Assembly (NCBI GenBank): GCA_903813345.2
Contig: CAIIXF020000001.1
Coordinates: 35,931,366 to 35,995,365 of the forward strand
Reading direction: 5' to 3'
Origin: Owenia fusiformis
Lineage: Eukaryota; Annelida; Polychaeta; Sabellida; Oweniidae
DNA length: 64,000 nucleotides
Shown piece after piece: positions 15,879-62,490 of the stretch. The notes beneath the pieces are model-generated. The model saw nothing but the letters and a program-made list of their open reading frames with translations. It searched no databases and was not told where the DNA came from. Position numbers and translations under genes: made by a program. The first letter of the stretch is position 1; each line of letters begins with the position of its first letter.

Positions 15879-15883
15879 TTATT
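15878..15883 (-). terminator. Possible polyadenylation signal overlapping the neuropeptide stop codon
   Basis: The minus strand reads GAAGAATAAAAAATATT, so the TAA stop lies within an AATAAA hexamer. If used, the 3' untranslated region would be very short. Other signals further downstream are equally possible. Confidence 0.3.
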
Positions 15884-16889
15884 CTTCAGCAGTGAGATCG
15901 TTCATGTTTGATTCGTCACCAGTTTCAATACTTTCAGCTGAGTTCTCTTCTGATGATTTTTTACCGAAAAATAGAGTAGGATGACTTCCGTCATCGAAAC
16001 GTTTGCCGAAAACGAGTCCACTACTAGCTGGGTCAAATCGTTTGCCGAAAACGAGTCCGCTACTTGCTGGGTCGAATCGTTTGCCGAAAACGAGTCCACT
16101 ACTAGCTGGGTCAAATCGTTTGCCGAAAACGAGTCCACTACTAGCTGGGTCAAATCGTTTGCCGAAAACGAGTCCACTACTAGCTGGGTCAAATCGTTTG
16201 CCGAAAACGAGTCCACTACTAGCTGGGTCAAATCGTTTGCCGAATACGAGTCCACTACTAGCTGGGTCAAATCGTTTGCCGAATACGAGTCCACTACTAG
16301 CTGGGTCGAATCGTTTGCCGAATACGAGTCCGCTACTTGCTGGATCAAATCGTTTGCCGAATACGAGTCCACTACTAGCCGGGTCGAATCGTTTGCCGAA
16401 TACGAGTCCACTACTAGCTGGGTCAAATCGTTTGCCGAAAACGAGTCCACTACTTGCTGGATCGAATCGTTTGCCGAATACGAGTCCACTACTAGCCGGG
16501 TCGAATCGTTTGCCGAATACGAGGCCACTACTAGCCGGGTCGAATCGTTTGCCGAATACAAGTCCACTACTAGCTGGGTCGAATCGCTTTTTCTTTCCAA
16601 AGACAAGTCCACTCATACTTGGGTCCATTTTCTTATCATCTTTCAAGGGGCGTTTCCCAAACACAAGACCACTACTTGCAGGGTCAAAACGTTTACCAAA
16701 AACAAGTCCGCTACTGGCAGGGTCAAAACGTTTCTTTTTTCCAAAGACGAGCCCACTGATGTCTGGATTCATACGTTTCCCATAGACCAATCCGCTCAAG
16801 TTTGGGTCCATTTTCTTCTCTTCTTGAATTGCTGTGACGACTGCTAACCATATCACCAACAGGGCAGTAAAAGGGTTTACCAGATCCAT
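15879..16889 (-). CDS. Neuropeptide precursor with 21 amidated peptides (SGLVF-amide, SALMFamide-like)
   Basis: A 336-aa single-exon frame. Residues 1-20 form a signal peptide (hydrophobic TALLVIWLAVVTA). Peptides are bounded by KK, KR or KKKR and carry a Gly amide donor. In order: MDPNLSGLVY, MNPDISGLVF, two FDPASSGLVF, a PLKDDKK spacer, MDPSMSGLVF, fifteen tandem FDPASSGLVF, and FDDGSHPTLFF. A 25-residue acidic tail rich in Glu and Ser ends the protein. The C-terminal S-G-L-V-F-amide fits the S-x-L-x-F-amide consensus of echinoderm L-type SALMFamides, which act as muscle relaxants. The (F/M)DPxxSG core also recalls pedal peptide/orcokinin-type peptides, although those are normally not amidated, so family assignment stays open. 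Products would be processed in the secretory pathway by prohormone convertase, carboxypeptidase and the amidating enzyme. A possible 3' splice site at 16898, eight bases before the ATG, suggests a 5' UTR intron. Confidence 0.93.
   Translation of the reverse strand: MDLVNPFTALLVIWLAVVTAIQEEKKMDPNLSGLVYGKRMNPDISGLVFGKKKRFDPASSGLVFGKRFDPASSGLVFGKRPLKDDKKMDPSMSGLVFGKKKRFDPASSGLVFGKRFDPASSGLVFGKRFDPASSGLVFGKRFDPASSGLVFGKRFDPASSGLVFGKRFDPASSGLVFGKRFDPASSGLVFGKRFDPASSGLVFGKRFDPASSGLVFGKRFDPASSGLVFGKRFDPASSGLVFGKRFDPASSGLVFGKRFDPASSGLVFGKRFDPASSGLVFGKRFDPASSGLVFGKRFDDGSHPTLFFGKKSSEENSAESIETGDESNMNDLTAEE
15999..16583 (-). repeat. 39-bp coding tandem repeat, 15 units
   Basis: Fifteen consecutive 13-codon units encode the same peptide plus Gly-Lys-Arg. 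Differences between units are synonymous only: GTT/GTA in the Val codon, TCA/TCG-type changes at the unit junction, GGA/GGC in Gly. The GTT and GTA variants occur in blocks (mostly GTT in the six C-terminal units, mostly GTA upstream), as expected from unit-by-unit duplication or gene conversion. Confidence 0.95.
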
Positions 16890-19800
16890 CTCTTAATCTG
16901 AAATGAGAGATGAAATAAATGAAATGTCTCTATTCCGCAAAACTATACTCAATTAAGATTTTTATGACTTCAATCACGTTTCGAGTAATGTGAACGTTCC
17001 TCTCTGTATATATGAGAGCTTGTGATAGGTGTGACCTACCAGCGTTCAGAAGTGTGTAGATTCGGGAACCGTGATATAATTACTATATGTAACCTTCGTC
17101 ACTTAAAAGGGAATTTGGAAAGTGTTTGAGGTGATTGATCCAATTTAAGGTATTGAACTTCGATATTTATGGATCCAGTGTCTCTCTTATGATTCCTTTG
17201 TTCTGTACTTTCCTCTGTGAAATTGATATGCAATTATTTATTTCATACGAAAGACTCCGTTTGTTTAGCATAGAGACTTTGTAAGCTGTTGACAATGTAA
17301 TAATATTGTTTAGTTAGTTGTTTAGCGATAGGACAATAATGTATACGATGTCTGCTTGACCGAACTTGATATTTCCTATTCTAAGTCTGATATAAAAGTG
17401 CGTGTTTGCAGCCCACGCATTTTTATCTTGGACATGCTGGATTCTATAAACGATTCAATCTGAATTGCAGCAAACATTTTAGACCTCGTATGCCGAGAAG
17501 ATGTGTCTGTAGAAAGATATAGGTCGTAAATAAGAGCCAATCAACAATTAGGTAGATTTAAATTGAGCTGTTTTCAAGAAGAGTGAAATCTCCTATCATC
17601 GTAAAAACGCTTGCAAGCCTCGTTTCCATAAAAATAGCCCGAGACATCCGGTAATCTAGAACAACGGGAAAAATTAAATTCAGACAATTAACTCAATACC
17701 TGAATATCTGATTTTATTACTACCAAATAGCATGTTAGATTAGATTAGATGTTGGATTATTTATTTTAGATAACCTATCTGATTAACAATATACGTCAGC
17801 ACCTAAAATAATATCCAGGTTTAAAAAATAGAATATCATGTGTCGTGAACAATAATGTTCAAATTAATCTCGGTATTGTGCTGAAGATGAGCCGCTAATA
17901 CCCGGAGTGTTGTATGATCTAATTTCATTGGAAATATGAGGATTGATGACAGGTATTTGTTACGTGGTCGACGGTGGCTTAATCTTGATCATTTCCATTG
18001 TCAATAGATATCAGTAAAAAGGAAATTCTATATGAGTATCTTACATGTGAACATAGCCTTGTTAACTGGTGATCATTAGCACCTATCTTACACCTGCCAC
18101 TTTTCATTTCAACATAGCGGATCTCTCCCGATGCAATAAAATGTTTTTAATTATCGGATAAAAGTTTCATTAAGAGTCTTTTATTTTGTCAATGATAGAA
18201 GATACGCGCCGTATATAACTATTTTCAGATCGGTTTGGTCAGTAAGTACATAGTTTAAGAAAATGACCCTAGATTCATTCACCAAGTTATAATTAAATCC
18301 GGTTTAGAGTTGTAAACGTATAATATATCACTATCTCCGAATAAGGGTAAGAATGAAATATGATGATACTATTTTCGGTGTGCTATAAACAAACAGTGGC
18401 CAAATATTAATAAATTCATTATACGATGTAACATCTATTGGGATATGGTCTAATAGATAAAATTCAATTTTACCTGTTTTTAGTAAATGCAATAAAATGG
18501 TAAACTATTCACCTGGCTACAATCAATTGATCAGATGATTTAGCAAGATACATCAAGTATTTATCGAATAAATTGAAACTTGTAATAAGAAACCATAGAA
18601 CGTGACAAGAACAAATAGGCGTTTTTCATCTTATATTACGATTATCCTCCTTAATTACTGCATTACGGGAACGCAGAGGTACCCTAGCTGAAGGCGTTGC
18701 AAAGCTAAGGCCATAAAAAGTAGATTCTTTGTTTGACGTCAACTTGCTTGTGTGATTTTGAGTAAATCACCAAAAAACAAACAAATCCAAATATCATTTA
18801 TATGAAATCAATTAACAATCCCAGGTGGTCTTGGTTTAAATGTTATACTATGTATTTAACTGTTTAAATACATATTATATACTAAATATGTGTTTGTTTA
18901 GTTACTGCAAATTGGTATATGTACCCTTTTGTAGCCATAAATTTAACACATTTAATAGGAAACAATGAAACAATTTCTGATGGCCTAATGAGAGCATACA
19001 ACATTAATCGTACTTTATTCAGCAAAATATTGCGGTTAGAATTCAGAGTTTAATATTTCAATACTGTATATGATTCCGAAAAGATAGTTTGCACCTTTCT
19101 GTAGCAACCATCTAGATGTATCTATACATTACTAATGAATATGATTCTTCATGTTCTAATAACATTAAATGCCCTGTTTGAAAACAAACACGGACAATAA
19201 GGCAATTATAAAAACTATAAAATTAGGCATAGTAGTCAATGATAATAAGTCAGTTATAAGCAAAGATACATCAAACCAAAACTGAGAGTCGCCGAATTGC
19301 AACATATGCAGCTCAAGTTCGCCATTCTGATATAATCACATCTTTCTGTTTTATAGAAAGGCTCTAATAGAATGCCATGGTGGGGCTGCATAGGGTCTAC
19401 CCACCGTGATATCGAACTGCAAATTTTTTTAATTTTAAGTACGTCAGTTATTTAATGGTTTCTTTTCCGAACTGCAAATTTTTTTAATTTTAAGTACGTC
19501 AGTTATTTAATGGTTTCTTTTCCATGGATTATTTCATACTATAAACACAATTAAGTAATCTAAGAAAGGTATAAATGTCAACGTCTATGTTTAAGTTAAT
19601 GGGATTATTTCTTAAAAGACAATGTAAAGACATTAACATTGTATTTTTAACGCAACTAGGACATCCTTTTGAAATGAATATTTCCTAAAACGCCCCAAAA
19701 GTATGAATACATCCATCCAAATAGCTTGCATATCACACCTAGCAGTCTGATTTAAATGTTAAGGGGCGAAATGCCATAAAATCAGCGGTGTAAGTTATGC

Positions 19801-45567: not shown

Positions 45568-48500
45568 ATGAGTGGACTGAACCCAGATGAAGTGAGTAAT
45601 CAACGATAGGAATAGTAGATTATTTTTTAAAGATTTTTTCTTTTAACACAGTCACTCACTGAGTCACTTTCAATTGATTGTTGGCCTGTCTTCATTATTC
45701 AACAGGCCTCGCGCTTAACTTTTTTTATCAGGTAGTCGTTTCACTACTTAGTGAATTTTACAGGTACTGTAGCTATTTGAGAGAAGCAGGTAGACTAGTG
45801 ATGTTTTTGATAAGAGCATGGGCTTTCAACTAGATAAGAGCATGGGCTTTCAATTAGAAGGGTATGGTAAGAGTGATCTTTATTCTTATTGTTGTGGTTC
45901 GATTCGAACAAGAAACAACAAAAGATCAGCTGATCGACGAATTAATAGAAAATCCATGTTTTTTCACATGGAGAGTCGTAAGGTGAGGTTATCGCATCCT
46001 ACGACCCCTTTAGATTGTGGTCGTACGCGCGTATAATTGGTCAGTCGATGTTTTTACAAAGTTGGAGAAAATACTACGCATTGTACACCTAAATGACCCA
46101 CCTCGATACATTCCTTAGTATTTTAGAATTCTTTTTTTATTGTATGGGTTCATCGGTAGAACGAAGAGATTTTAGTTTTTACATCGGAAATATATCAGCA
46201 ATTTTCAAAATGTCGGAAGGGGAATTCCCCAGGGATTTCCCTTATGACTGGTGCATGCCGGGAACTGAATGGAGGAATTTGACGGTTGAAATAAGTTTAA
46301 TATTACACGCAAATATTGCTATCAAAAACGAAAACCTCTTCATTCTGCCGATAAACCCATACAATTGGCGATTCAACTACATAAAAAGAATTCTAAAATA
46401 CTAAGGAATGTATCGAGGTAGGTCATTTAGGTGGGTAATGTGTAGTATTTTCTCCAACTTTGTAAAAACATTGACTGACCAATTATACGCGCGTATGACC
46501 ACAATCTAAAGGGGTTGTAGGATGCGATAAAGGTGAGGTACTAGTGAAGTTAGCTAGCTGGAGGAAATTACAAGTAGTGTTTTTTGGGTAAAACATGTAG
46601 CAAAGCGCTACCTTCACAATGCTAATTTCGAGGCCTGTTGAACATTTTTAATAAAACGTTATTGATCCTTGATATAGTTTATGATTCATAATTCAAGTCA
46701 TCTATTCATAATTCAAGTCATCTATTCGTAATTCAAGTCATCTATTCATAATTCAAGTCATCTATTCATAATTCAAGTCATCTATTCATAATTCAAGTCA
46801 TCTATTTTTCTGCCATTGATGTAATAGCCCTAATTTTGAAAGTAATTTATGGGCCAATCAAATGGGAGGCTCAAGGCTCATGAAGTTGCGAATTCTGGTG
46901 ACAAAATCCTTAAAACTTAAATATTTTGATGCTACTACTCATTCTGTGCACAGGTACGCCGTAAGCGTTTAGCTCGACTAGCTGGTGGTAATGCTGCATC
47001 ATCATCGACATCTCTTCCCAACAGTGAACAGACCTCTTCTGTTTCTATGCCTCAAGTTCCTCAAACAGAATCTGCCTCTCAGTCGAGCACTCAACCAACT
47101 GATGATAATGTCCCAATGTTAGAGATAGTACGAGAAAGTGTTGATTCATCGGCGAGTATGGAATCAGGTATGTAAAGCATATAGCAACAGTTAACAATAT
47201 GCAGTTAATGATATCATTTCTCAAAGTAAGTTAATATTTATTATTGAACATATAATCATAATCTTATATTTTGAGTGTCTTCTTGTGTTTCAGCTGCACC
47301 AACTGCTTCATTGTCTTCCGCAGGCTCAATGACATCAGAACTTCAAAGCATGGAAATAGATGCTGCTGGAGAAAAAACGTAATTATTAACTTTTCTGTTT
47401 CCTGATATATTACTAATTAGAACATCAATAGTTTAAACAAATGTGTTTTGTGAGTCCAGTTTCCAGTCCAGAGAAATGTTGTACGCAGGAGGTAGAACTA
47501 AAAATGTTCATAATGACAAGACATGTATATTATAACCAAAATATTCATACAAATTGCAATGTTCCAGTGCAGTGCAGGCTCAAATGGATGCTGACTCTGG
47601 TATAGAAACGATGGAAGTTGATGACACAGAACCAAATGAAAGCAAAAGAAAACGGGTAAACATGCAAATGTTTTATTCATAATGTTCAAAATTATCAGAA
47701 ATAAAGATCATATAAAGAATCATATATAAAAAAACTGTTACCTATCATTTCATGTTCAATATACAGGGTGAGCCAAAAAGGTAACCCAAACAAATCTTAA
47801 TAACTTAATCATCCAGCATGGGTAAGTTAAGTTAAGTTAAGTAATATTCAGCAGAATTGAACCTTTTTTAATGTTCTTTGATTCTAATAGGTATCATTGG
47901 TCTGTTCCAAAATGTCATGATTTTATGGCCATTTTACGAAACATGCTGCAAATGTCAAAACAATACTAAAATCACCCAATATGAGCCCCCAGAATTTTAT
48001 CTTTGTGGTTATTTCAAAGGAATATTGTGGAATGAAAGAAAATTTGAATAGAGTTCAGTTTTGCTAATTATGACTTAAAACCCATATTGGACCACTGAGT
48101 TATTAAGATTTCTTTAGGTTTGGTTACCTTTTTTGGCTCACCCTATATATGAACATACATGTCAGTGAACTGCTGTTAAACCTTTATAGAAATGATTATC
48201 CCAGCTAAATCTTATGCAAGCTGCTTTGTTATACATATCAGATAAAGACATTTGTGTTCATGAATTGTAAATGTTATGTATATTATAAATGCCTTTATAT
48301 TATATATATTTTAGCAGTCAAGTATTAATGAAGCCACTGAAGAGCATGTCCAGAATTCCATTAGGAGAGTATTCCGTGTGTCCTGGAACAATGCTGAGGC
48401 CAGTCAGGGAAATACTATTGCCCTTCCAGAACTAGCTGAAGCTGCTAAATCGGGAGATGGTAACTACATAATGTTGATTTAGTACACTTGTGTATATCTT

Positions 48501-51500
48501 GATCTGTGATATTTTTAAAACTTTATCCTTAAACATTTTCACCTATACAAATGTAGTAGTATATAGAAGTATTAACTCATGTTGTGCATCTTTTGTCCTC
48601 CTTTATGTATTTGATTGAAAAAATATTTATATAAAATGAGTTTGAATTGAAATGACAAGTCTTGTTTTAAATCTCTGCCCACTCCCCATGAGGGAAATGG
48701 GATTAGAGATGTCAGGAAAATATGATAATTTTTTCCTACAAAGAGTACAAATATATTCTCTTCACTGTTAATGTTTTATTATTAGATAAAACTTATGTAA
48801 TACTAGCAAATAGCAATGTAACATTTATGTAACAATTTTCAACAACTGACAAATTAATTACTTTTTGTCACATTAATGTGTTTTTACAAGATGTTTGTGG
48901 TTGTTTTGTAGGTTGGTTGGATCACAAGGACCTAATAAGTCAGTTGTTATTAGAAGTATTAATGATTTTGAAGAACAAACAGGAAAACCCTTTCACAACT
49001 TTGAAACTAGAACCTCCTAGTTCTCCAAGCAAATATGGGTCTCCAAGTAAATACGGAGCTAGTCCTAAAAGGTAAGTTAATTGAATTACTTTAAAACACA
49101 AAATAATGTACATGATCCAAAATATTATGATTCATTATAATATTTTATAGGTTAAAAGATGTGCTATACATGCAAAATTGTAAGTGATATACTATCACTC
49201 AAAAGTGATTGCTATTCAAAATTTACTCATAATTTTTGTTACATTATTTTTTACACTGAAAATCATGTTTCAGTCCTAGCCCACTGTCATCGTGTATGAC
49301 ATCACAACAAACTAGTCGGGAATTTACATACAAGAAGGTTCAGCCAGAAAAATGTGCTGAGGTGAATATGATCACCTACCTGATGGATTGCTATGATCGA
49401 GTCTCTGTAGAAGAGAGGTCAGCCCCTAAGAGAAGTAAAACACCACCATTGAGTGACGTCCTTGCAGACATAAGGTGTCAGTGTGTATGTCACACAGCAT
49501 TGGTGCTCCAAGGTGTATTTACACAGATAAGGTTAGTTCTGAAAACAGGAATAATGTGTAGTTTGAATAAAAGATTGTAAGCCTGGGTATAGTGAATATG
49601 ATTTTTTTATCCCATTTATTTTATCCCATTTAAGGAACTTGACTGATTATATCAAGGCACCTGTTAAGTTATCTGTTCTTGTGCCATATTTCAGGTCATT
49701 TGCTTAACTGACTGTTCTATGTGCCATATTTCAGATCACCTGCTAAATTATCTGTTCTTGTGCCATATCTGCTGTCACACAATCTACCCAGGGACTTCCT
49801 TATACAACTTATGACTATCACATACCAGGACAAGGATTCATTCAGAGCAGTATGTTCACCAATTATTCATTAAATTCTGCTATAGTACAATATAGACTAA
49901 TATTAGATATCTTAAATTTTGATCAAACCTCCATATGCAACACCTTTTCAAGTGTTTAAATAATGGAAATTACAAAAATTGATGGAAAATACTTTGTGTA
50001 ATATGATATAACATTGCAAAAGCAATTTCAATAAAATATTTAAAGAACACAAAGAGGTGTAAACTACCAATTTTTATCAATATTAAATAATATTTGCAAT
50101 TTGTGTATATTTGCAGGTATTTGAGCCAGTTTTACAAGGGTTGGCATCTGTGATGAGATCAATATCATTTGACAACCCAGAGTTTAGGCAACCTTTGATT
50201 GTGTTCAGTGAACTTTGTGATGTCAAAATATCAAATACAAGACCTATATGTAACCTGGTAAGATATTTTACAGAAATCTGTTATGATTCAATTCCAAAAA
50301 AGAATTGAATTTACTATTAAACATACATTTTCATTTTGGTCGGAGATTCTGCAATTGAGAGCTGGGTTATATTTCCAAATACATTCATAGAATTTGACAT
50401 GCATTTAATCCTTTCAAAAGAGACCACTTTAATTTTTGTTTATAAACATCCTGTGGTGACTTTCCATTTAATCTTCTCCCTTGTAGTTAATTTTATTGTG
50501 TAATTTAACTGGGTAGAATATCTATCAAACTTATTGGGTACAAGGTAACCAAAAGTAACAGGACAGGTGCTGTCTTTTTTTATTAATACTGAACAGATCC
50601 TGTTCATACATTCTACTACACTGGAAAGAATTTCAAAACTGGTATAGTGGTGCTAGAGCCTTGACTCAAACAGACTAGCTGACATGTCAGGAAGGGTAGA
50701 TTTCACAAGTCAGTGAAGACTCACTCTTCTCCATGACGATTTGACCCTCCAGATTAGCTATCAATGCATACCATTTGAAGTGAGATATTACACGATCATG
50801 AGAGAAGTCTGTATGGTCTAAGATGTCAGAAAAAATTTGAACATAATTGGCGCAGAATTTAATTCAATTTATTTATTTCATAATTCTTATATAATATACA
50901 CTATAAAAACAAGCCGCTGGACACCCTAGTGGGTATATGTTGCGGTTTAACAGAAATTTTTAAAATGACATCTAGACTACATATAAAAGAAAGCACTTAT
51001 GTTACATGTAGGTATATAAAATGTTATTAACAATAATACTTTAAGGATGTACAATGTAGAAATGTTACAAAAAATCGGGTACCAGTATAAAAATCAAAAA
51101 TCAACAGTACAGTATTATACATTATCGATAGATGAGTAGTTTTTTATATGAAGATTTGAAAATATTTAGAGTGGAGCATTTTTTAATATCATCTGGTAGA
51201 GCATTCCAAAGATTAGGACCTAGATAGCGAAGGGAAAATTTAGAGCATTTAGGGATATGAAAATCTCGTGAAATGATGATGGACATTAATACTTTTAACA
51301 AAATGCCAGCACCAGACCTGTTACTTTTAATACAGCCTGTATTCTCTACTAATGCTAGTTATTATTTATTTATTATTTAGATAACCAAACTAGATAACTG
51401 GTTGCCAGATTCGTTAAGCCCAGCTGCAGGATTGGAAATTGAAAGATTGTCCATCTTGGGAGCTTTCTTTGGTATCTCTGTCTTTGCTGAAGATGATGTA

Positions 51501-54500
51501 AGTAGTCATACAAATACTACATTCATATTTGATTTAGTAAGCATTTTAATTCAGTGATTTTACAAAATTTACAAGTTAAGAGGACCATAGCCAATTAGCT
51601 TTGATTAGGTCAACCAGAGGAAATATTAAGAATAACCTTGGACTTAGTTGTTCTTTCTATTTACAATTTGGGAATTTCATGATTTTAGACATTTATAAAG
51701 AATTGGTAATGCCAATGATTTGATGTGTATATGGTTTTAGACAAGTGTGGTGGATGCCTATTTCTCCAACCCTGAGATGACAGCTGATAGTGCCAGGATG
51801 ATCAACAAATCTCTGCAACAAGCCATGGAGTTTGCAAGGGTAAGTCTTATATCCATTTAATACACCCAAATTGTAGTTATATGGTTGCTCACAGAAAATG
51901 CATACCATAAATTTTTCGTTAAAATTTATTCTTTTTTTTCTTTGTTTCATTTTATCAACTTTGCTGTTTCAGAGGTTATTTTACAGGTCCTGCTGCCAGT
52001 TGGTCAACGGAAGAACTCTATTTATTAAATATGTTTATTTGCTTCATTGTAGGGGGAACAATTTAAGATCCTACACAGTATTTTAGTGAACTCTGAGACT
52101 AGGGATGCAGCCATGTCTTTCATAGCTGCAGCTACATGTAGGAACCACAAACGCTCACAATTACAGGTATTTAAAAATCAGCCATCTTGAATTTTACAAA
52201 TAAGTGTCATTTTGTTTATTTGTTTTAAGTACATTTATTGTTTAAAATAATTTTAAATGAATAATGCTAATCTTGGGATATTTTATATAATTGTATGTCT
52301 GGTAACAGCATTTCTTTATTTAAAGTACAATACCACAATACCAAAAATTAATTAAACTTGATAATATTTTTCCAGGCAGATGAAAGACTAGTCAGTGGAG
52401 ATGGGTTCATGCTAAACTTTCTCACAGTCCTTCAGCAACTTGCAGTGAAAGTCAAACTAGACAAAGTAGATCTTTGTTATCTAAATCATCCTAAATCACG
52501 CATAGACATCAAAGAGGAGACAAGGCTGAAGTGCAGCTCTCAGGAAGCAAACAACTGGATAGATACAATGAGTAAGCCTTGAGTATTCAAGTACTAAGCT
52601 TTGATTTGTATAACATGGAAGCTCTGTGGAAGCTCTGAATTGTTGAATTTATTTATATTTCGTTCAAAATTTCAAAATGTGAAAAAATCAGTGTACAATA
52701 GAAGTGCATAATTTGATATAAACATGTGAAATTTAATTAATGTTTTATTATAGAAGCTAACCCTACTCATAGCTGGCCAGATCCCAAGTTCCCGACAGAG
52801 TGTTTCTTCCTCACCCTGCATTGCCACCACCTGGCCGTGCTCCCCATTGCCAGGAAGTACCAACGTAGATTACGTGCAATACGTGACTTATCACGCATGG
52901 TAGATGAGATCCAGAGTGCCGAGCCACAATGGGCTAACACACCAGTAGCAATGCGCAATAAAGAACTGATTAAGAGGTGGAAATCTCAAGTTCAGGTGGG
53001 CTGCTTTGAACATATTCACTCTTCCAATGTGTTAAACACTTAATCAGAAAAGCATGACATAACATTTTCTTTCTTTTTACATTTTAACTCCCATAAAAAA
53101 CATGACAGTTACAGACGAGATTGATACAAGATGTGAAAAAGTGTAAAATCATCTTTAATAATTTAGAGGCCAGTGAACTTAACCAGTTTGTATTCTGAAA
53201 ATGCTAGCTTGCTTAGGTACCAAAATTGTAGAAGCAATATTCATATTCAAATGTGACAAACAACTGCACAAGCACACTTTATAGTAAAACCTGTATATTC
53301 ACCTAGTTAATCTGAACATCTCCCAATCTGAACATTTTTTCTGTCCCGTTTTTCCTCCCATTGACTCCAGTGTTAAAAAGCTTGAAATGTGAACATTATT
53401 TGTGACTAGAAATAGAGATCATGTACATTCAGTGTTTCAAACATTGTCATGTGATTTTTCAGAGACTTCAAAAGGGCAAACTGTGTGCAGATGCTGCTTT
53501 GATGGATGAGAGTCTCTTGAGGCGGTGTCTCCAGTTTTACAGTTCACTGGCACAATTTATACTTAACATAGTTGATTCTAAACCCAGTGGGTAAGTTCTG
53601 TTTATATGATTTCTGTTTTGTTTATTTATAATTAATTTTAGATTTTCTAATCTGTTGGATTTTAAAGATTATAGGGGCAATGAAGGAATGGATAAGAGTA
53701 GCAAACTTTATCAAAAAAAATTCCAATTATTTCAGGTCTTGGGTTTTCATTGCTATCTTCTGTTTCCAGTTCAGACTTGATTTCATGAAGTGCCTTGATT
53801 TTTAAATGCTGCCCATTTATTTTTACATTTCTGCATCTTAAATCATCAATTACTTTGATCCTGTTTCAACCAATACCTTAATTTTTTCCACATTGAATTT
53901 TGAATTGTAAGGTACACATGGTTTTGTTTATTTTTTCCTGCTACTTTGATGACTCAATGAAATAATCAAAACAAGATTATAACACATGCTTAATATCAGT
54001 AACAATATGTTATTGCAGGCCTACATTACCTCTAGCAACAGATGTCCCTATGCTGTTCTCTGCCCTGCCTGAGTACACAGTGGACGATATGGCAGACTTC
54101 CTCCTATTTGCAATACAGTGAGTCTACTTTTCGTTACAATTTCTGATGCTTTTCAATTACATTTCAGTACCTTTTGAACAGAACAATTTTTTCCAGTCCC
54201 ATTTTTGTCCTCGTAAAAATGATTAAAATGTAAACATCTGGTATATAACATCAGAACACAAAATATTTTCTTGTACTGTGTGAAATAAAATTGTCCAGTT
54301 TTCCATAAATAAAAAGAATCTTGCCTGAATTCTGATTTTATAAAAATGTTCATATTCTCGCCCAATGTGTACAATATCTAAACTGACCCATTATTCATTA
54401 TATTTCAGGTACATGCCCAGCATACTGGCTGATGTTAACCTAGATCCCATCATAACGTTCCTCATTGTGTTCATTTGTTCCCCCACTTACATCAGCAACC

Positions 54501-57500
54501 CCTACCTAGTGGCCAAACTCATTGAAGTTGTCTTTGTTATCAACCCTAATGTACAGCCAAGGACAGAGAAATTGAACAATATGGTAATGCTGCACGATCT
54601 CGCCCTGGATAATCTCGCTCCAGCACTTATGATATTTTACACTGGTATGGCTTAAATCTTCATTTTTTGATGTACTATTAGTCTATATTGATTAATACAT
54701 TTTACTGTAACTATTCAGTGAATGAAAACAAAATTCTTATTGTTGAAATAATAAAATATATGCCAATAACTAAAGATTCCTCTTCTGTTTTAGACATTGA
54801 GACAACTGGCTCCAGTAATGAGTTCTATGATAAGTTCACAATCCGTTACCATATAAGCATTATCTTCAAGACTATGTGGGAGATGCCTTCTCATAGGTCC
54901 AGGTTCATTTCAGAGGCCAAGTAAGTACAATGAGGCAAAACATTTACAATAAGGTGAAGTAATTACAATGGTGGCAAGTATGTACAATGAAGTAAAGAAT
55001 TTACAATAAAATTAAGTAATTACAATGGTGCCAATTAAGTACAAGGAGGCAAAATATTTACAATAAGGTGAAGTAATTACAATGGTGCCAAGTATGTACA
55101 ATGAAGTAAAGAATTTACAATAAAATTAAGTAATTACAATGGTGCCAATTAAGTACAAGGAGGCAAAATATTTACAATAAGGTGAAGTAATTACAATGGT
55201 GCCAAGTATGTACAATGAAGTAAAGAATTTACAATAAAATTAAGTAATTACAATGGTGCCAATTAAGTACAAGGAAGCAAAACATTTACAATAAGGTGAA
55301 GTAATTACAATGGTGCCAAGTATGTACAATGAAGTAAAGAAATTACAGTAAGATTAAGTAATTACAATGGTGCCAATTAAGTACAAGGAGGCAAAGTATT
55401 TACAATAAGGTAAGTAATTGCTTATGCCAAGTATATACAATGAAGTGAAGAATTTACAATAAGATTAAGTAATTACAATGGTGCCAATTAAGTACAAGGA
55501 GGCAAAGTATTTACAATAAGGTAAGTAATTGCTTATGCCAAGTATGTACAATGAAGTAAAGAATTTACAATAAAATTAAGTAATTACAATGGTGCCAATT
55601 AAGTACAAGGAGGCAAAGTATTTACAATAAGGTAAGTAATTGCTTATGCCAAGTATATACAATGAAGTGAAGAATTTACAATAAGATTAAGTAATTACAA
55701 TGGTGCCAATTAAGTACAAGGAGGCAAAGTATTTACAATAAGGTAAGTAATTGCTTATGCCAAGTATATACAATGAAGTGAAGAATTTACAATAAGATTA
55801 AGTAATTACAATGGTGCCAATTAAGTACAATGAGGCAAAACATTTACAATAAGGTGATGTAATTACAATGGTGCCAAGTATGTACAATGAAGTAAAGAAT
55901 TTACAATAAAATTAAGTAATTACAATGGTGCCAATTAAGTACAAGGAGGCAAAGTATTTACAATAAGGTGAAGTAATTGCTTATGCCAAGTATGTACAAT
56001 GAAGTAAAGAATTTACAATAAGATTAAGTAATTACAATGACACCAATTAAGTACAAGAAAGTAAAGTATTTACAATAAGGTAAGTAATTGCTTATGCCAA
56101 GTATGTTCATTGATGCCATGTATGCACAATGAGGCAAAGTACATACAATGATTTTAAGTTATTACAGTGTGACCAAGTGTGTGGATGTAAAATAAGTTTA
56201 AGTAATTACAATGAGGGCAAGTATGTACATTTGTACAATGTCACCAAGTAAGTGTAATATGGTTATGTTAGTATATGCAACAAGTCCAGGTACATTCTGT
56301 TAACTGTCAAAGAATTTAGACTTAATTTTCTGGAACTTTCATACATGTCGCACAATGAGAGACTGTTCATATACATATGTATGTAGATCATCACTTTATC
56401 TTTCCTCCCAATTAACAATTTTTCCATTATTCTGTAATATTCAGGTCAGGGAAACAGTTTGTGAAATTTGTAAACATGCTGATGAATGACACAACATTTC
56501 TGCTTGATGAGAGCCTAGACACACTGAAGAGCATACATGAGATACAGGAGCTCATGGAGAATAAAGAAGAGTTCAACAAACTGTCCAGAGTAAGTAACAA
56601 ATAACCTGTGCCAAGGTACACAAACCATCAAAATTCTAATCTTGGCAGAGTATTATTGACATCCAGTGTAACCATTGTACTTTGAATTTGTAATGAAGTT
56701 TGAAACAAAAACTTAACTAATAGTTATTATTACCACCTTGCAGGGCCTGTTCTAGGGGTTTTAGTACTAGTTGAGAAGGCATTTAAATTGCTATATTGAC
56801 GTGAGCAATATTGTGTCGGGCGTTAATGACTTTAGTTGGGCAATAATGACATTATCCGCCCGGCTATGTTTCCCGAGAAAAGTGATATCGTTCAGTGCGT
56901 AAGATTTTCTATTTCAAATTTGCTATTTCAGCCCTGGTCATTAACGGTGGTAATAATAGTAATAACGTCATTTCTGCGGGCAAAATAGTGAAATATTGGA
57001 CCTTGGGCCTGCGGCCCTTGGTCCAATATTTCACCATATTGCCCTTTGGAATGACGTTATTGTACTATTATTGGTGATAATAGGCCATGCAAACAACCAA
57101 GCTGTAGTTTATAAGACAATCCCCTGTGTTTAAATTATTTTCATTAAGTCATTTGTGACCCCTTGTATTGAAAGCGAGAGCCTTTTGTGCATAACTTGGT
57201 TAATGTTTTTCAGGAGCAACAACAAAGTAAACAAAAACAGCTTTCCACAGATGAGAGACAATGCAGGTCATACCTCACCCTTGCTTCAGAAACTGTGGAA
57301 ATGTTCCACTATCTCACCAAGTGCATCGTAGATCCATTTCTTATACCCGTATGTATTGTTTGTACTGTTCCAGTTCCATTGTTGGCATGTTGTCTCAAGT
57401 AATGTTAAAGTTGTATATTAATATGTTTAAAATTCACTACTGCCTAAATACCAATGGCAATCACTTTTTTTTATTATTCTTGGAAATGAACTTTGAAAAA

Positions 57501-60500
57501 ATGAGCATTCCAGCAACAGACTTATTGCCAACATGGAACTTGTGCCAGTCATGTTGCCAACCTTAGTATAGTACCTAAGAATACATTAGAAAATAATCAT
57601 ATTTTAAAACTATATGTCCAACCACTGTATCTCAGGGACATATAACTATGTATTTTAAACTTTAATATATGTTTATATATATTTGTGTGATCAATCTATG
57701 GTCCAAATAAAGAAACATAAACATATGTCAAACTGTTCTTTTTATGTTTTAGGAGCTCTCACACAGATTAGCTGCAATGTTGAACTTCAACCTCCGCTCA
57801 CTATGCGGCCCAAAATGTAAAAATCTCAAAGTGAAAAACCCTGAAAAATATGGCTGGGAACCGAAGAAGCTTTTGAATCATCTGACAGATATATATCTAC
57901 ATTTGGACTGTGACAAGTTTGCTCAGGCAATTGCCAGTGATGAGGTAAGAGCAATAGTTTTTGTAAACTGATATCTGATGATAACAGTCCTTTATAAGCC
58001 AGACAAGATTTTGTCAAGCTTGTAATAGAGCTGCCTTATATATACAAATACAGATCTGTATGAATTCTTGGCATAGATAGAAGACTGGTAACAGAGTTTG
58101 TGGTTTCAAGTACATTACTTTTTTCAAAAAAGCCTCCTTGTAGATCATAATAATTATAGAAATCACAAATTTTGTGTGGTTTTTAGAGCTATGCGCTTAA
58201 ACGTTAATATTCATAAAATATGGTGTTGCATTCATCCATTGGATCCCATGTCTAATTTACATTTTATCTACTATGAGTATGCATAATTTACTTTTTATTC
58301 ATTCTAGAACACTTTCATTCTTCATATTAGTCAATAACAATATTGTGCTTCAATAGTTTTATATTCATTCAATTTATATATACATCCATATCCTTGCTCC
58401 AGAGGTCCTACTCCAAGGAGCTGTTTGATGATGCCATAGCTCGCATGACTAAAGCCAGAATAAAGACAAACCAAGAGATTGAACAGTTCAGGGCTCTACA
58501 AGAGAAAGTGCAAAACTTAGTTCTCAAGAAGATGAGGACTGAAGTGGACCATGAAAACATTCCGGATGAGTTTAAAGGTAAACAATAAGCATACAAGCAT
58601 CTGTGTCATCATATCGTTGCTGCATCATGAAGATAGCATGATAAGTAATTTCAGTAATACACCTAAAATCAAGCTTGGATTTTGTGTAGAAGGATTTGCC
58701 AAACTCTGCTCTTACATTCAAGCTTTTCAGTGATCTATATTGTGATCAACATTCTTCTGTATTACACATATTAGGCCTATATTATGAAGTGGAATGCTCA
58801 ACTCCTAATAAAGTCATCCAATCCTAACCCACTGTGATGGACATACACAGACCAATCATTCCTATTCAATTATTCACTTCACTGTTTGATTTATTCTAGA
58901 TCCATTGATGGATACATTGATGAATGACCCTGTGCTACTCTCTAGTGGTATGATCATGGACAGACCAATCATTCCTATTCAATTATTCACTTCATTGTTT
59001 GATTTGTTCTAGATCCATTGATGGATACATTGATGAATGACCCTGTGCTACTCTCTAGTGGTATGATCATGGACAGACCAATCATTCCTATTCAATTATT
59101 CACTTCATTGTTTGATTCATTCTAGATCCATTGATGGATACATTGATGAATGACCCTGTGCTACTCTCTAGTGGTATGATCATGGACAGACCAATCATTC
59201 CTATTCAATTATTCACTTCATTGTTTGATTTGTTCTAGATCCATTGATGGATACATTGATGAATGACCCTGTGCTACTCTAGTGGTATGATCATGGACAG
59301 ACCAATCATTCCTATTCAATTATTCACTTCATTGTTTGATTTGTTCTAGATCCATTGATGGATACATTGATGAATGAACCTGTGCTACTTCCTAGTGGTA
59401 TGATCATGGACAGACCAATCATTTCTATTCAATTATTCACTTCATTATTTGATTTATTCTAGATCTATTGATGGATACATTGATGAATGACCCTGTGCTA
59501 CTCTCTAGTGGTATGATCATGGACAGACCAATCATTCCTATTCAATTATTCACTTCATTGTTTGATTTGTTCTAGATCCATTGATGGATACATTGATGAA
59601 TGACCCTGTGCTACTCTCTAGTGGTATGATCATGGACAGACCAATCATTCCTATTCAATTATTCACTTCATTGTTTGATTTGTTCTAGATCCATTGATGG
59701 ATACATTGATGAATGACCCTGTGCTACTCCCTAATGGTATGATCATGGACAGACCAATCATTCCTACTCAATTATTCACTTCATTGTTTGATTTATTCTA
59801 GATCCATTGATGGATACATTGATGAATGACCCTGTGCTACTCCCTAATGGTATGATCATGGACAGACCAATCATTCCTATTCAATTATTCACTTCATTGT
59901 TTGATTTATTCTAGATCCATTGATGGATACATTGATGAATGACCCCATGCTACTCTCTAGTGGTATGATCATGGACAGACCAATCAATCCTATTCAATTA
60001 TTCACTTCATTGTTTGATTTATTCTAGATCCATTGATGGATACATTGATGAATGACCCTGTGCTACTTCCTAGTGGTATGATCATGGACAGGCCAATCAT
60101 TCTGCGCCACCTGCTCAACTCCCAAACTGACCCATTCAACAGGGAGAACCTTACTGAAGAAGAACTGATACCAGGTATATACATGTAATGCAATAATTTT
60201 AAACAACATTTTTTTGTTGAAAAAGGTTCTGTAAAACATATTTGTTTGCACTCTGCAGATTATTGAATTGAGCTTGCTTTTATCACCAACCTTACCACTA
60301 ACCAACAACCAAAAGCAGTTGTATGTTGAATTCCATTTGAAACTTATGTGACAGAACCTTGAACCAATTTCTGTATTATACATTGTCATATTTGTTTAGA
60401 ATGGGGAAATTGTGTGGTGATACTGTCCCTTTAAGGGTGCGCTATGATGTCATCAGTAGGTCAATGCCTCGTGTATTTGAAGCTAAGCAAATAAAGTCTT

Positions 60501-60755
60501 TTAAACTTCTAAATATTCATATTCCGTTGAGATCTATCTGTCTGCTAACAGTACAAATTGTCGCTTTCATTTTACGGCAGTCGATAAATGGAAATAGAGG
60601 AGTGAAAATTTGAGTGATTATGAGGCAGATTTGTACTATGTGTTCTATTTAGATAAATATATTGTCTGATACTCCATGTTTACTTTGTTTCAGTACCTGA
60701 TCTGAAAGAGAAGATATCAAAATGGAGGAGAGAACAAGAGGAAAGCATGCAGTAA
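45568..60755 (+). CDS. UBE4B: Ubiquitin conjugation factor E4 B (U-box E3/E4 ligase)
   Basis: Twenty-four exons join in frame to 1147 aa: 45568-45591, 46954-47167, 47294-47378, 47568-47655, 48315-48459, 48912-49071, 49274-49531, 49735-49849, 50117-50257, 51381-51497, 51741-51839, 52053-52166, 52376-52571, 52754-52995, 53463-53590, 54019-54117, 54409-54644, 54794-54920, 56445-56589, 57214-57348, 57753-57944, 58403-58577, 60028-60174, 60694-60755. All introns are GT-AG. The N-terminus has the UBE4B-specific [23 protein letters not shown]-like and FRVSW motifs, so this is E4 B rather than E4 A. A Ufd2P core spans roughly residues 260-1060 ([28 protein letters not shown]-like [43 protein letters not shown]). 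The C-terminal U-box (about 1079-1143) has [37 protein letters not shown] and EEELIPVPDLK. The protein elongates ubiquitin chains with E2 enzymes and the p97/CDC48 ATPase. Exon 5 has a TTAGCAG tandem acceptor that can add or drop one Gln. Confidence 0.95.
45990..46529. mobile_element. Mutator-like foldback element in UBE4B intron 1
   Basis: Inverted arms of about 150 bp (45990-46140 and 46381-46529), starting TATCGCATCCTACGACCCC, enclose about 240 bp. The element is flanked by a direct repeat AAGGTGAGGT at 45980-45989 and 46530-46539. Long terminal repeats with a 9-10-bp target duplication are typical of the Mutator superfamily. A 103-codon frame across the loop (46093-46404) has no recognised similarity. 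Confidence 0.75.
46682..46805. repeat. 20-bp minisatellite in UBE4B intron 1
   Basis: About six tandem copies of TATTCATAATTCAAGTCATC, nearly identical (one A/G variant), some 150 bp before exon 2. Confidence 0.95.
47764..48145. mobile_element. Mariner-like MITE in UBE4B intron 4
   Basis: It starts CAGGGTGAGCCAAAAAGGTA after TA and ends with the inverted counterpart followed by TA. The match extends about 50 bp inward (AATCTTAATAACT). No transposase. A truncated relative is at 27260-27480. Confidence 0.8.
49675..49765 (+). repeat. Partial tandem duplication around the exon 8 acceptor of UBE4B
   Basis: CTGTTCTTGTGCCATATTTCAG followed by GTCATTTGCTTAACTG precedes the real acceptor at 49731-49734 and looks like a diverged copy of it and of the start of exon 8 (ATCACCTGCTAAATTATCTG). 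The upstream copy supplies a second TTTCAG. Splicing there would put exon 8 out of frame because of a TAA in the copy. Confidence 0.6.
50870..51300 (-). pseudogene. 5'-truncated LINE retrotransposon 3' end in UBE4B intron 9
   Basis: On the minus strand a frame ending with TAA at 51122 reads [20 protein letters not shown], then [13 protein letters not shown] and [12 protein letters not shown]. This is the characteristic C-terminal tail of non-LTR retrotransposon reverse-transcriptase proteins (RY-x-GP-x-LWN-x-LP, then F-K-x-x-x-K-x-x-L). The rest of the protein is missing. About 250 bp of 3' untranslated sequence continues to about 50870, where the plus strand becomes T-rich. Confidence 0.75.
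53283..53410. mobile_element. One-ended pogo-like MITE fragment in UBE4B intron 14
   Basis: AGTAAAACCTGTATATTCAC, then GAACATT and CTCCCATTGACTCC blocks match the left part of the 3084-3949 element. No right terminal repeat is visible, so it is a fragment. Confidence 0.5.
54911..56245. repeat. Dimeric minisatellite starting at the exon 18 splice donor of UBE4B
   Basis: About ten to eleven units of roughly 114 bp, each made of two related 57-bp halves. A half unit reads GCCAAGTAAGTACAATGAGG, then TTTACAATAAGG and AAGTAATTACAATGG. The first half unit is the true exon 18/intron junction (exon ends GCCAA at 54920). Many units keep a donor-like CCAA-GTATGT or GTATAT; the partner half usually has CCAATTAAGTAC, in which the GT is lost. 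Units decay towards the right. Confidence 0.93.
56940..57079. repeat. Palindrome in UBE4B intron 19
   Basis: AATAATAGTAATAACGTCAT through AATATTGGACCTTGGGCC faces its inverted copy across a three-base loop (TGC) near 57011. The arms of about 65 bp suggest a short foldback element. Confidence 0.75.
58832..60027 (+). repeat. Tandem array of acceptor-plus-U-box exon starts (10 copies before the functional one)
   Basis: Copies of the exon 23 start, each preceded by a TTCTAG acceptor, begin at 58900, 59013, 59126, 59239, 59350, 59463, 59576, 59689, 59802 and 59915; the functional exon starts at 60028. The unit is 113 bp (111 for the fourth copy, which lost two bases). Each encodes [14 protein letters not shown](S/P)SGMI and stops being U-box-like after MDRPII, where the intron-derived half begins. 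Copies are almost identical, with variants such as LPNG in copies 8 and 9 and NEPV in copy 5. A partial intron-derived half lies before copy 1. Confidence 0.95.
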
Positions 60756-62490
60756 TATGTAATCTCATCTGAGAATTGGGACTTTCACACTTCATTGGGA
60801 CTTAAGGATTACCAGTTAGAATTCAAGTCACACGACATTGGGACTTTCATACTTTATTGGGACTTAAGGATTACCAGTTAGAATTCAAGTCACACGACAT
60901 TGGGACTTTCACACTTCATTGGGACTTAAGGATTACCAGTTAGAATTCAAGTCACACGACATTGGGACTTTCACACTTCATTGGGACTTAAGGATTACCA
61001 GTTAGAATTCAAGTCACACGACATTGGGACTTTCACACTTCATTGGGACTAAGTATTACCAGTTAGAATTTAAGTCATACAATATAGGGACTTTCACACT
61101 TCATTTGGACTTAAAAACACCTTCATTAAATTGGAATTTATGACTACAATGTGGATTCAAAGCAACATTGGAATTGAATGTTGCACTTGAACTTTGAGAA
61201 AATGAGATTTAAAAAACATTGGGATTTCAAAACAACAGAGAGGCTTTCCATTACTTTCAAAACAACAAACACAGGGCCTCGAATACTACACTACTAAAGA
61301 CACATTTAACTGCACTTCAGCCTGTTACATGAAGAGTTATAAAACACACATCGGCTGGTTTGGAATACTGAAGCCATACTGAAGAATAAAAGAAAAATAG
61401 AAAAAATGTAAATTAAATTATAAAGCAAAAGTCTTTGAATTTCATTGTTTATAAACATCAAGTACTTTGTTACAGCTCTAGGACTGTTTATGAATTGATG
61501 GGTAATTGAATACTGAAAATATACTGAAGAAATATCTAGCTGAGCTGGTATGATAAACTGAGTGAGTACCATCAGTCAGCAGTTGTAATGTGAAAACCAA
61601 TTTTGTACACCCTATGACATACCCAAAATAGTGTCCCCTCTTAAATGATACACATATAATAGTTTATCCAAATGTTCTAAAGACATCAACATAAAGAACA
61701 ACTGTAGCATGTAATGCATCATAGTTGAACTCTACCAAATCATATCAGTCTGCACACAATTGTATAAAAACAGGCCCATTGTGGATGTCTGCAACAGTCT
61801 AACTCACCTCTCCAATATAACTTGACTTGATGGAGTTGTCAAAGATACATTGCAATGGTCACCATGGGCTATTTTAGTCAGATATGTCGACTCAAAGACT
61901 TATTTTGAAGCTACATATTGGATGGCTTTCTCTTCAAAGACTTTTTGCCCAAAAGGAACATTGTGGAGATACAATTTGTAAGGTCATCATGCACAAATGT
62001 TTTGACTCATTATTATTAATTTTTGATATATCCCAGTTTTTTCAATTGCTTTAAAATCTAACTGCAGGATGAAAGGGATGGAATGTCATATTGCTTTAGA
62101 TTTTTTAATTTGGAACAAATAATGGTATGAAGCCTTTTGGAGTGAAGCTCTCAATGCCAAAAGTATTAAAGTTTCCCCTACATTCAGGATGAAACGTTAC
62201 TCATTAGGTGTAATTATAGTATTGACTCATACTGTAATGTTTGAAACCCTGAATCTCTCCAGATTGGTTTCATCTCCCCTATGCTTTGACATACTTCAAT
62301 GTTGTTGACTTGTTATCTTGTGGTTGTGAGATAGACATGTGCCAAGTCCTAAAGATACACAAAAGTTCATATGTTTAAATTAACCACCAAATGCTCTGCA
62401 GTTATTGATTCATAATATTTCCATACCTGAATGCAGTGAATCAAGTGTAGTATATTTATGTTTATGGAATTTTGTAGTGAATAAAGTAAT
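60756..62490 (+). other. UBE4B 3' untranslated region
   Basis: After the TAA at 60753-60755 the sequence has no conserved coding. Candidate polyadenylation hexamers AATAAA are at 61385-61390 and 62480-62485. The exact end cannot be fixed without transcript data. Confidence 0.5.
60776..61110 (+). repeat. 62-bp tandem repeat in the UBE4B 3' UTR
   Basis: Units starting TTGGGACTTTCACACTTCAT at 60776, 60838, 60900, 60962 and 61024, nearly identical for the first four; the fifth and a trailing partial copy are diverged. Each unit contains an internal CATTGGGACTT duplication. Confidence 0.95.

Follow-up and report, generated by a model that had tools for sequence, protein, structure and literature searches.

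Tandem copies of an intron-exon junction at the U-box exon of UBE4B in the annelid Owenia fusiformis, with similar arrays at exons of other genes

Minisatellite-like duplications of intron-exon boundaries, known as mirages, have been described in amphioxus and are reported not to disturb splicing (PMC3087553). They are known in the globin and Adh genes (PMC3087553) and in troponin C genes, and the paper that adds troponin C also presents similar repeats in PGBD5 (PMC3902484). In the accessible text of the mirage papers, the units of BflGb6 consist of an intron 3' end and an exon start over 150-160 bp, as in the array that we describe here at the U-box exon of UBE4B, and the units of BflGb9 consist of an exon 3' boundary, as in the donor arrays of the Owenia genome. 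The same text portrays one authentic genic section accompanied by splice signals in many copies, a trait shared by the UBE4B array. The latter is a minisatellite-like tandem repeat inside a gene (113 bp x 11.1), the unit spans the boundary and carries the splice signal in 11 of 11 copies, and a single authentic copy completes the gene, giving a UBE4B of 1,139 amino acids through the last acceptor. Unlike the lancelet mirages, the arrays studied here belong to an annelid, number 11, 18 and 11 copies in UBE4B, a kinesin gene and a ubiquitin-protease gene, and lie at about one tenth of the exon matches sampled (12 of 115). No case of junction arrays outside lancelets was recognised in the literature searched, which consisted mostly of titles and the starts of abstracts and included few subscription papers, and a search specific to UBE4B returned no description of such an array. 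The apparent novelty of these mirage-type arrays lies in the phylum and in how often they occur.

The human IFI6 (6-16) gene reportedly contains a minisatellite of splice donors, described by Turri et al. in 1995. This work is cited in PMC2572611 and PMC4526556, and the accessible part of the second source states that two downstream repeat units serve as splice donor sites (PMC4526556). IFI6 and UBE4B are alike in that a splice site of the gene has been multiplied by a minisatellite, but IFI6 has donors, units of which are used, whereas the U-box locus of UBE4B has acceptors that were seen in genomic sequence. In a potato RdRp gene, an intron has been gained by tandem duplication according to the accessible text of PMC4974935, where the Rogers model and ATP2A1 are cited. 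In the potato gene as in UBE4B, the duplicated piece of intron and exon brought its own splicing signals. A single duplication produced a new spliced intron in the potato gene, whereas UBE4B is readable without any new intron.

The analysed DNA is a stretch of 64,000 nucleotides of contig CAIIXF020000001.1 (the window), in which UBE4B is encoded on the forward strand (Table 1). When the 23 exons were joined via the last acceptor of the array, an open frame of 1,139 residues up to the stop codon was obtained. A Pfam search with the typed product (1,136 residues, the first residues altered) matched Ufd2P_core over positions 1-628 of 628 and the U-box over positions 1-72 of 73, and the best PDB matches of the C-terminal 73 residues were UBE4B chains (5o75, 2kre, 2kr4). 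These matches confirm the gene identity proposed in an earlier note made from the letters of the window. For the 22 exons that could be delimited at both ends, lengths range from 85 to 258 nt, and the shortest intron of the gene model is 126 nt. The U-box exon is exon 22 of the 23 seen in the window, the last but one, and the intron that separates it from exon 21 (end at 58577) measures 1,450 nt, most of which is array. Another tandem array (62 bp x 5.5, at 60775-61114) was seen just past the stop codon, presumably in the 3' UTR. In the profile search of the assembly, the Ufd2-core and U-box profiles also matched on contig C9, in a gene which we take to be probably the UBE4A paralogue. A third Ufd2-core-like gene, besides those on C1 and C9, was seen at G000:C7:30916764-30927723, and no U-box was among the C7 matches listed in this search.

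The unit of the array at the U-box exon combines 39 nt of intron 3' end, including TTCTAG, with the first 74 nt of the exon. Its TRF score is far beyond chance. Between 58400 and 60900, TTCTAG occurs 11 times; each of these acceptors is intact and leads into the beginning of the U-box exon. The first exonic bases are 58900, 59013, 59126, 59239, 59350, 59463, 59576, 59689, 59802, 59915 and 60028, corresponding to a spacing of 113 in nine of the ten intervals and of 111 in the other. The complete exon follows in copy 11 only. The count of 11 tandem 113-bp copies and the restriction of the full U-box to the last one had both been put forward in the earlier note and are reproduced here. The note had further claimed that reading on from a non-final copy ends at the next acceptor. 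This holds for nine of the ten non-final copies, which encode 37 residues followed by the TAG of the next acceptor, and fails for copy 4 (59239), where a loss of 2 bp shortens the exon part to 72 nt and a stop follows after 14 residues. Upstream of the left edge of the array, an ungapped comparison revealed little similarity.

Table 1. Positions of the UBE4B gene, of its junction arrays and of the arrays in two other genes (window positions, except where another stretch is named)
Feature	Position	Strand	Remarks
UBE4B gene	46954..60755	+	23 exons visible; start codon or any earlier exon not identified in the model
Older acceptor array, about 2.8 diverged 40-bp copies of exon-7 start + TTTCAG	49658..49768	+	TRF, viewing
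Donor array, 10.7 copies of 114 bp (about 57-bp half units)	54916..56113	+	begins at exon-17 donor, 54921 GTAAGT
Acceptor array, 11.1 copies of 113-bp unit	58847..60102	+	TRF; 96% matches, score 2330
Left edge of acceptor array	58847..58860	+	14 nt identical to end of the unit's exon part
First-to-last acceptor stretch with ten non-final exon starts	58900..60027	+	first exonic bases 58900 to 59915
Authentic U-box exon (147 nt)	60028..60174	+	sole copy with whole exon; donor GTATAT from 60175
Last UBE4B exon, coding part with stop codon	60694..60755	+	joined exon model
Kinesin-family array, exon start + acceptor, 18 copies x 159 bp (one spacing 158)	L005 546-3389 (G000:C2)	-	
Ubiquitin-protease-family array, exon start + acceptor, 11 copies x 150 bp	L006 451-2129 (G000:C9)	-	

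The copies are closely similar. No difference separates copies 2 and 7 across the whole unit; in every other pair, between 2 and 7 of the 113 positions differ, with gaps included in the count. Departures from the consensus amount to 1-4 of 113 positions in copies 1-10 and to three in the last copy, and copies 8 and 9 have two changes in common. The functional copy encodes LLPSG, whereas six of the ten non-final copies have a serine in place of the proline (LLSSG); the proline is kept in three, and copy 4 is deleted at that place. In the exon part of the nine other non-final copies, two differences are silent and six change the protein, which is the expectation without constraint, albeit for a small number of eight differences. 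As far as these eight differences tell, the copies do not resemble coding sequence maintained by selection. The array is found in one place in the assembly, and the search gave a single further match, a 78% piece on C9.

UBE4B contains two further junction arrays. The older acceptor array at exon 7 has acceptors at 49695 and 49735, the second of which is used in the open gene model. Past the exon-17 donor, the motifs searched were found eight times as CAAGTATGT, three times as CAAGTATAT and ten times as CAATTAAGT, which has no GT. The exon-17 donor itself scored 10.0, as compared to 8.9 for the eight CAAGTATGT copies and 5.8 for the three CAAGTATAT copies.

Junction arrays were also found in other genes of the assembly, which comprises 498,259,871 bases in 525 contigs. 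Profile searches with six other families returned at least 612 matches, 29 of them in two tandem arrays; the searches score the best candidates only, so that these numbers are lower bounds, and the tandem matches were picked by eye. One array belongs to a kinesin-family gene and the other to a ubiquitin-protease-family gene, and in both the full exon is present in the last copy only. Four of the 17 non-final kinesin copies were translated, and all four end in KNKPVAL followed by a stop (TAA). An AATAAA followed by a T-run was seen in some of the kinesin copies. The protease array is open in one frame throughout, so that use of its upstream acceptors would add in-frame repeats of 50 residues. 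Four silent and seven changing differences were counted there (p = 0.49), as against six silent and two changing ones in the exon part of the non-final kinesin copies (p = 0.004, without correction for the three arrays that were tested). The silent excess in the kinesin array hints at constraint or at exchange with the functional copy, and the kinesin copies could earlier have held the functional last place by way of unequal exchange.

The frequency of such arrays was estimated from two samples that were not chosen for arrays. The Cpn60/TCP1 sample covered 11 stretches from eight loci (85,208 nt) and took in 50 of at least 60 exon matches. The kinesin sample covered 20 stretches (110,120 nt) with 65 of at least 144 matches, leaving out those outside the stretches or with two or more stops, as well as the 18-copy kinesin. 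Exon limits in both samples are the limits of the profile matches. In the 31 pooled stretches with their 115 exon matches, the screen placed 13 arrays at an exon edge, of which 12 proved on viewing to be junction arrays. An exon edge was touched by eight of the 22 arrays in the Cpn60/TCP1 sample, all eight being junction arrays on viewing, and by five of the 19 arrays in the kinesin sample, four of which held up; the edge array of L038 was rejected as intronic. Six arrays are on the acceptor side (L012, L013, the 30-bp array of L014, L018, L024 and one in L035) and six on the donor side (L009, the 48-bp array of L014, two in L019, L034 and one in L035). The full exon always lies at the inner end, which is a geometric necessity and not independent evidence. 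Two adjoining 105-bp arrays of 39.8 and 9.3 copies (L018 18-4215 and L017 8923-9901) were also seen in a Cpn60/TCP1 gene region; they are probably one array and are not at a profile-matched exon.

To obtain a null expectation for array placement, single units or whole arrays were shuffled, and placements of single units that damaged an exon were discarded. Arrays with a period below 25, fewer than 1.8 copies or less than 75% matches were excluded, and one Cpn60/TCP1 match that spans an array with stops (in L018) was dropped, leaving n = 49. In the Cpn60/TCP1 sample, the eight arrays observed at exon edges compare with 2.7 expected for single units (fraction of shuffles 0.004) and 3.5 for whole arrays (0.018). 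The five kinesin arrays, counted before viewing and thus including L038, compare with 1.9-2.2 expected for single units (0.034-0.059) and 3.9-4.0 for whole arrays (0.34-0.38). Taken together, the enrichment of arrays at junctions is suggestive rather than established; the arrays touch exon edges beyond random placement in the Cpn60/TCP1 sample and less clearly in the kinesin sample, and something may favour junctions. The unit length is a multiple of three in eight of 17 arrays (p = 0.30), namely the three of UBE4B, the kinesin and protease arrays and the 12 from the samples, and in five of the 12 from the samples considered separately (p = 0.55). Assigning one period to each array is a simplification for L012, the L035 donor array and the exon-17 donor array, where spacings are mixed; the main spacing of one L035 array is 154, not a multiple of three. 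Selection for in-frame units was rejected on the count of eight of 17 (p = 0.30).

The acceptors of the U-box array were scored with a rough matrix built from the 20 other acceptors of the UBE4B gene, which themselves scored 8.2-16.6, or 0.3-13.6 when each was left out of its own matrix. Scores of the array acceptors ranged from 10.8 to 15.0. The last acceptor scored 13.4, as did two of the ten upstream ones, and another five reached 15.0, which gives no support to site strength as the explanation for a preference for the last acceptor. Exon length does set the sites apart, since the last acceptor yields an exon of 147 nt and the upstream ones yield exons of 260-1275 nt. If no further splicing takes place, a transcript spliced to an upstream acceptor would meet a stop at a distance of 147-1162 nt from the end of the exon, and an mRNA with such a premature stop is expected, as a general rule, to undergo nonsense-mediated decay.

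We consider it likely that the array is a neutral minisatellite, tolerated because the gene stays intact when the innermost splice site is used, and that it is not a regulator. At its origin, a piece of DNA reaching from the last bases of the intron into the U-box exon would have been duplicated in tandem, and the array would then have grown to 11 copies. When the duplicated piece contains an acceptor, the added copies come to lie in the intron and one complete exon remains at the inner end; with a donor, the arrangement is mirrored. The gene remains intact as long as splicing takes the innermost site, that is, the last acceptor or the first donor. This site gives the shortest exon, and exon definition would favour the choice, because the 147-nt exon is within the 85-258 nt range of the gene and the exons from all other acceptors (260-1275 nt) are outside it. 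Occasional use of an upstream acceptor would introduce a premature stop and probably lead to decay of that mRNA. Against this interpretation, all 11 TTCTAG sites are intact, seven upstream copies score at least as high as the last, the kinesin array has its silent excess, and exon edges are touched more often than the placement null predicts in the Cpn60/TCP1 sample, less clearly in the kinesin sample. In its favour are the open frame through the last acceptor, the recurrence of the design in other genes, the unit lengths without significant bias to multiples of three and the undisturbed splicing reported for the lancelet mirages. Tolerance on the ground that the last acceptor wins was one option of the earlier note and agrees with our interpretation.

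The other option of the note was a tunable splicing switch, in which ten decoy acceptors would compete with the last one, the share of transcripts with a premature stop would lower the output of UBE4B and the copy number would set the dose. The preservation of all 11 acceptors, five of which score above the last and two equal to it, is consistent with a switch, as is the stop met on reading on from every upstream acceptor, 147-1162 nt before the exon end and a likely trigger of nonsense-mediated decay. However, a stop in this phase would be expected by chance for about one third of unit lengths, upstream acceptors would create exons of 260-1275 nt in a gene whose other exons are 85-258 nt, and the amphioxus precedents are reported, in the accessible text, to be spliced normally (PMC3087553, PMC3902484). 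Arrays of the same architecture are present at acceptors and donors of unrelated genes, unit lengths are not significantly biased to multiples of three, and the exon-part differences of the UBE4B copies are as expected without constraint. A regulator peculiar to UBE4B is rejected because the design recurs in other genes. The array is real; its action as a switch is possible, lacks supporting evidence and is in our view rather unlikely.

An artificial multiplication of a single junction, or of fewer copies, during assembly would account for the identity of copies 2 and 7, and one amphioxus array does appear to be aberrantly assembled in a genome draft, according to the accessible text of PMC3087553. 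Against this, 2-7 differences separate the copies of every other pair, a deletion is present in one copy, the same gene contains an older, diverged acceptor array, and similar arrays are found at other exons of the genome. Judged on these features, an artefact appears very unlikely. It is also very unlikely that each copy is a 48-nt exon, running from the acceptor to GTATGA and separated by 65-nt mini-introns, so that repeats of 16 residues would precede the U-box. Such exons would measure 48 nt with both ends in the same phase in ten of the 11 copies, and GTATGA scores 6.1-6.5, within the 5.6-11.7 of the 21 real donors of UBE4B. However, the exon of copy 4 would measure 46 nt and cause a frameshift, the introns would be about half the length of the shortest in the model (126 nt), and the shortest exon with two ends seen is 85 nt. 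An equal or better donor score is found for 60 of the 789 GTs of the gene, GTATGA is also present in the authentic exon, so that its use would damage the real U-box, and the copies carry no sign of protein constraint (two silent, six changing). Mutually exclusive exons were rejected, as the near-identical non-final copies hold 74 (once 72) nt of the 147-nt exon and are without its donor.

The UBE4B array by itself would leave the biology of UBE4B unchanged, and the frequency of such arrays in the genome is a more interesting result than the switch. Eleven near-identical acceptors in a gene that presumably still yields a working UBE4B make a ready system for asking how the spliceosome picks one of several equal sites. 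Should the frequency in the samples be representative, there would be many such tests at both ends of exons, mirages would exist outside the cephalochordates, and intron gain, gene prediction and isoform annotation would all be affected. A wider reading, possible but doubtful, is that this genome pervasively amplifies its own splice junctions in tandem, at about one tenth of sampled exons, on both sides and above random placement. The spliceosome would then pass over ten or more near-identical decoys and take the innermost site, some arrays would have been taken over for regulation by decoy dose or have given rise to new exons or introns, and UBE4B would be a single example in a genome-wide natural experiment on how decoys are ignored.

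Other repeated structures were observed in the window and the assembly. On the minus strand of the window, an open frame at 15882-16892 contains about 15 tandem 39-bp units that encode FDPASSGLVFGKR and variants of it. From its translation, the frame looks like a multi-copy precursor of amidated neuropeptides; five spellings of the FDPASSGLVFGKR-type motif were not found in the literature searched. At G000:C9:37986009-37994334, a row of twelve matches covers approximately the same segment of the myosin head (starts 18-30, ends 80-84), with distances of 326-1,941 bases and differing scores, and is probably a cluster of alternative exons of a myosin heavy chain. The kinase exons with the HRDIKPQNLL region at L007 497-806 (C10), two in tandem and diverged from each other, are probably a mutually exclusive pair; they were rejected as a junction array since they looked like two diverged exons. 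A search of the assembly for COX1 gave no match. Finally, C6 contains three erythrocruorin linker matches (PF16915) that suggest an annelid, the best with 38.1 bits against a cut-off of 27, and one of these frames gave a weak match to 'Hemoglobin linker 1' (E 0.0025).
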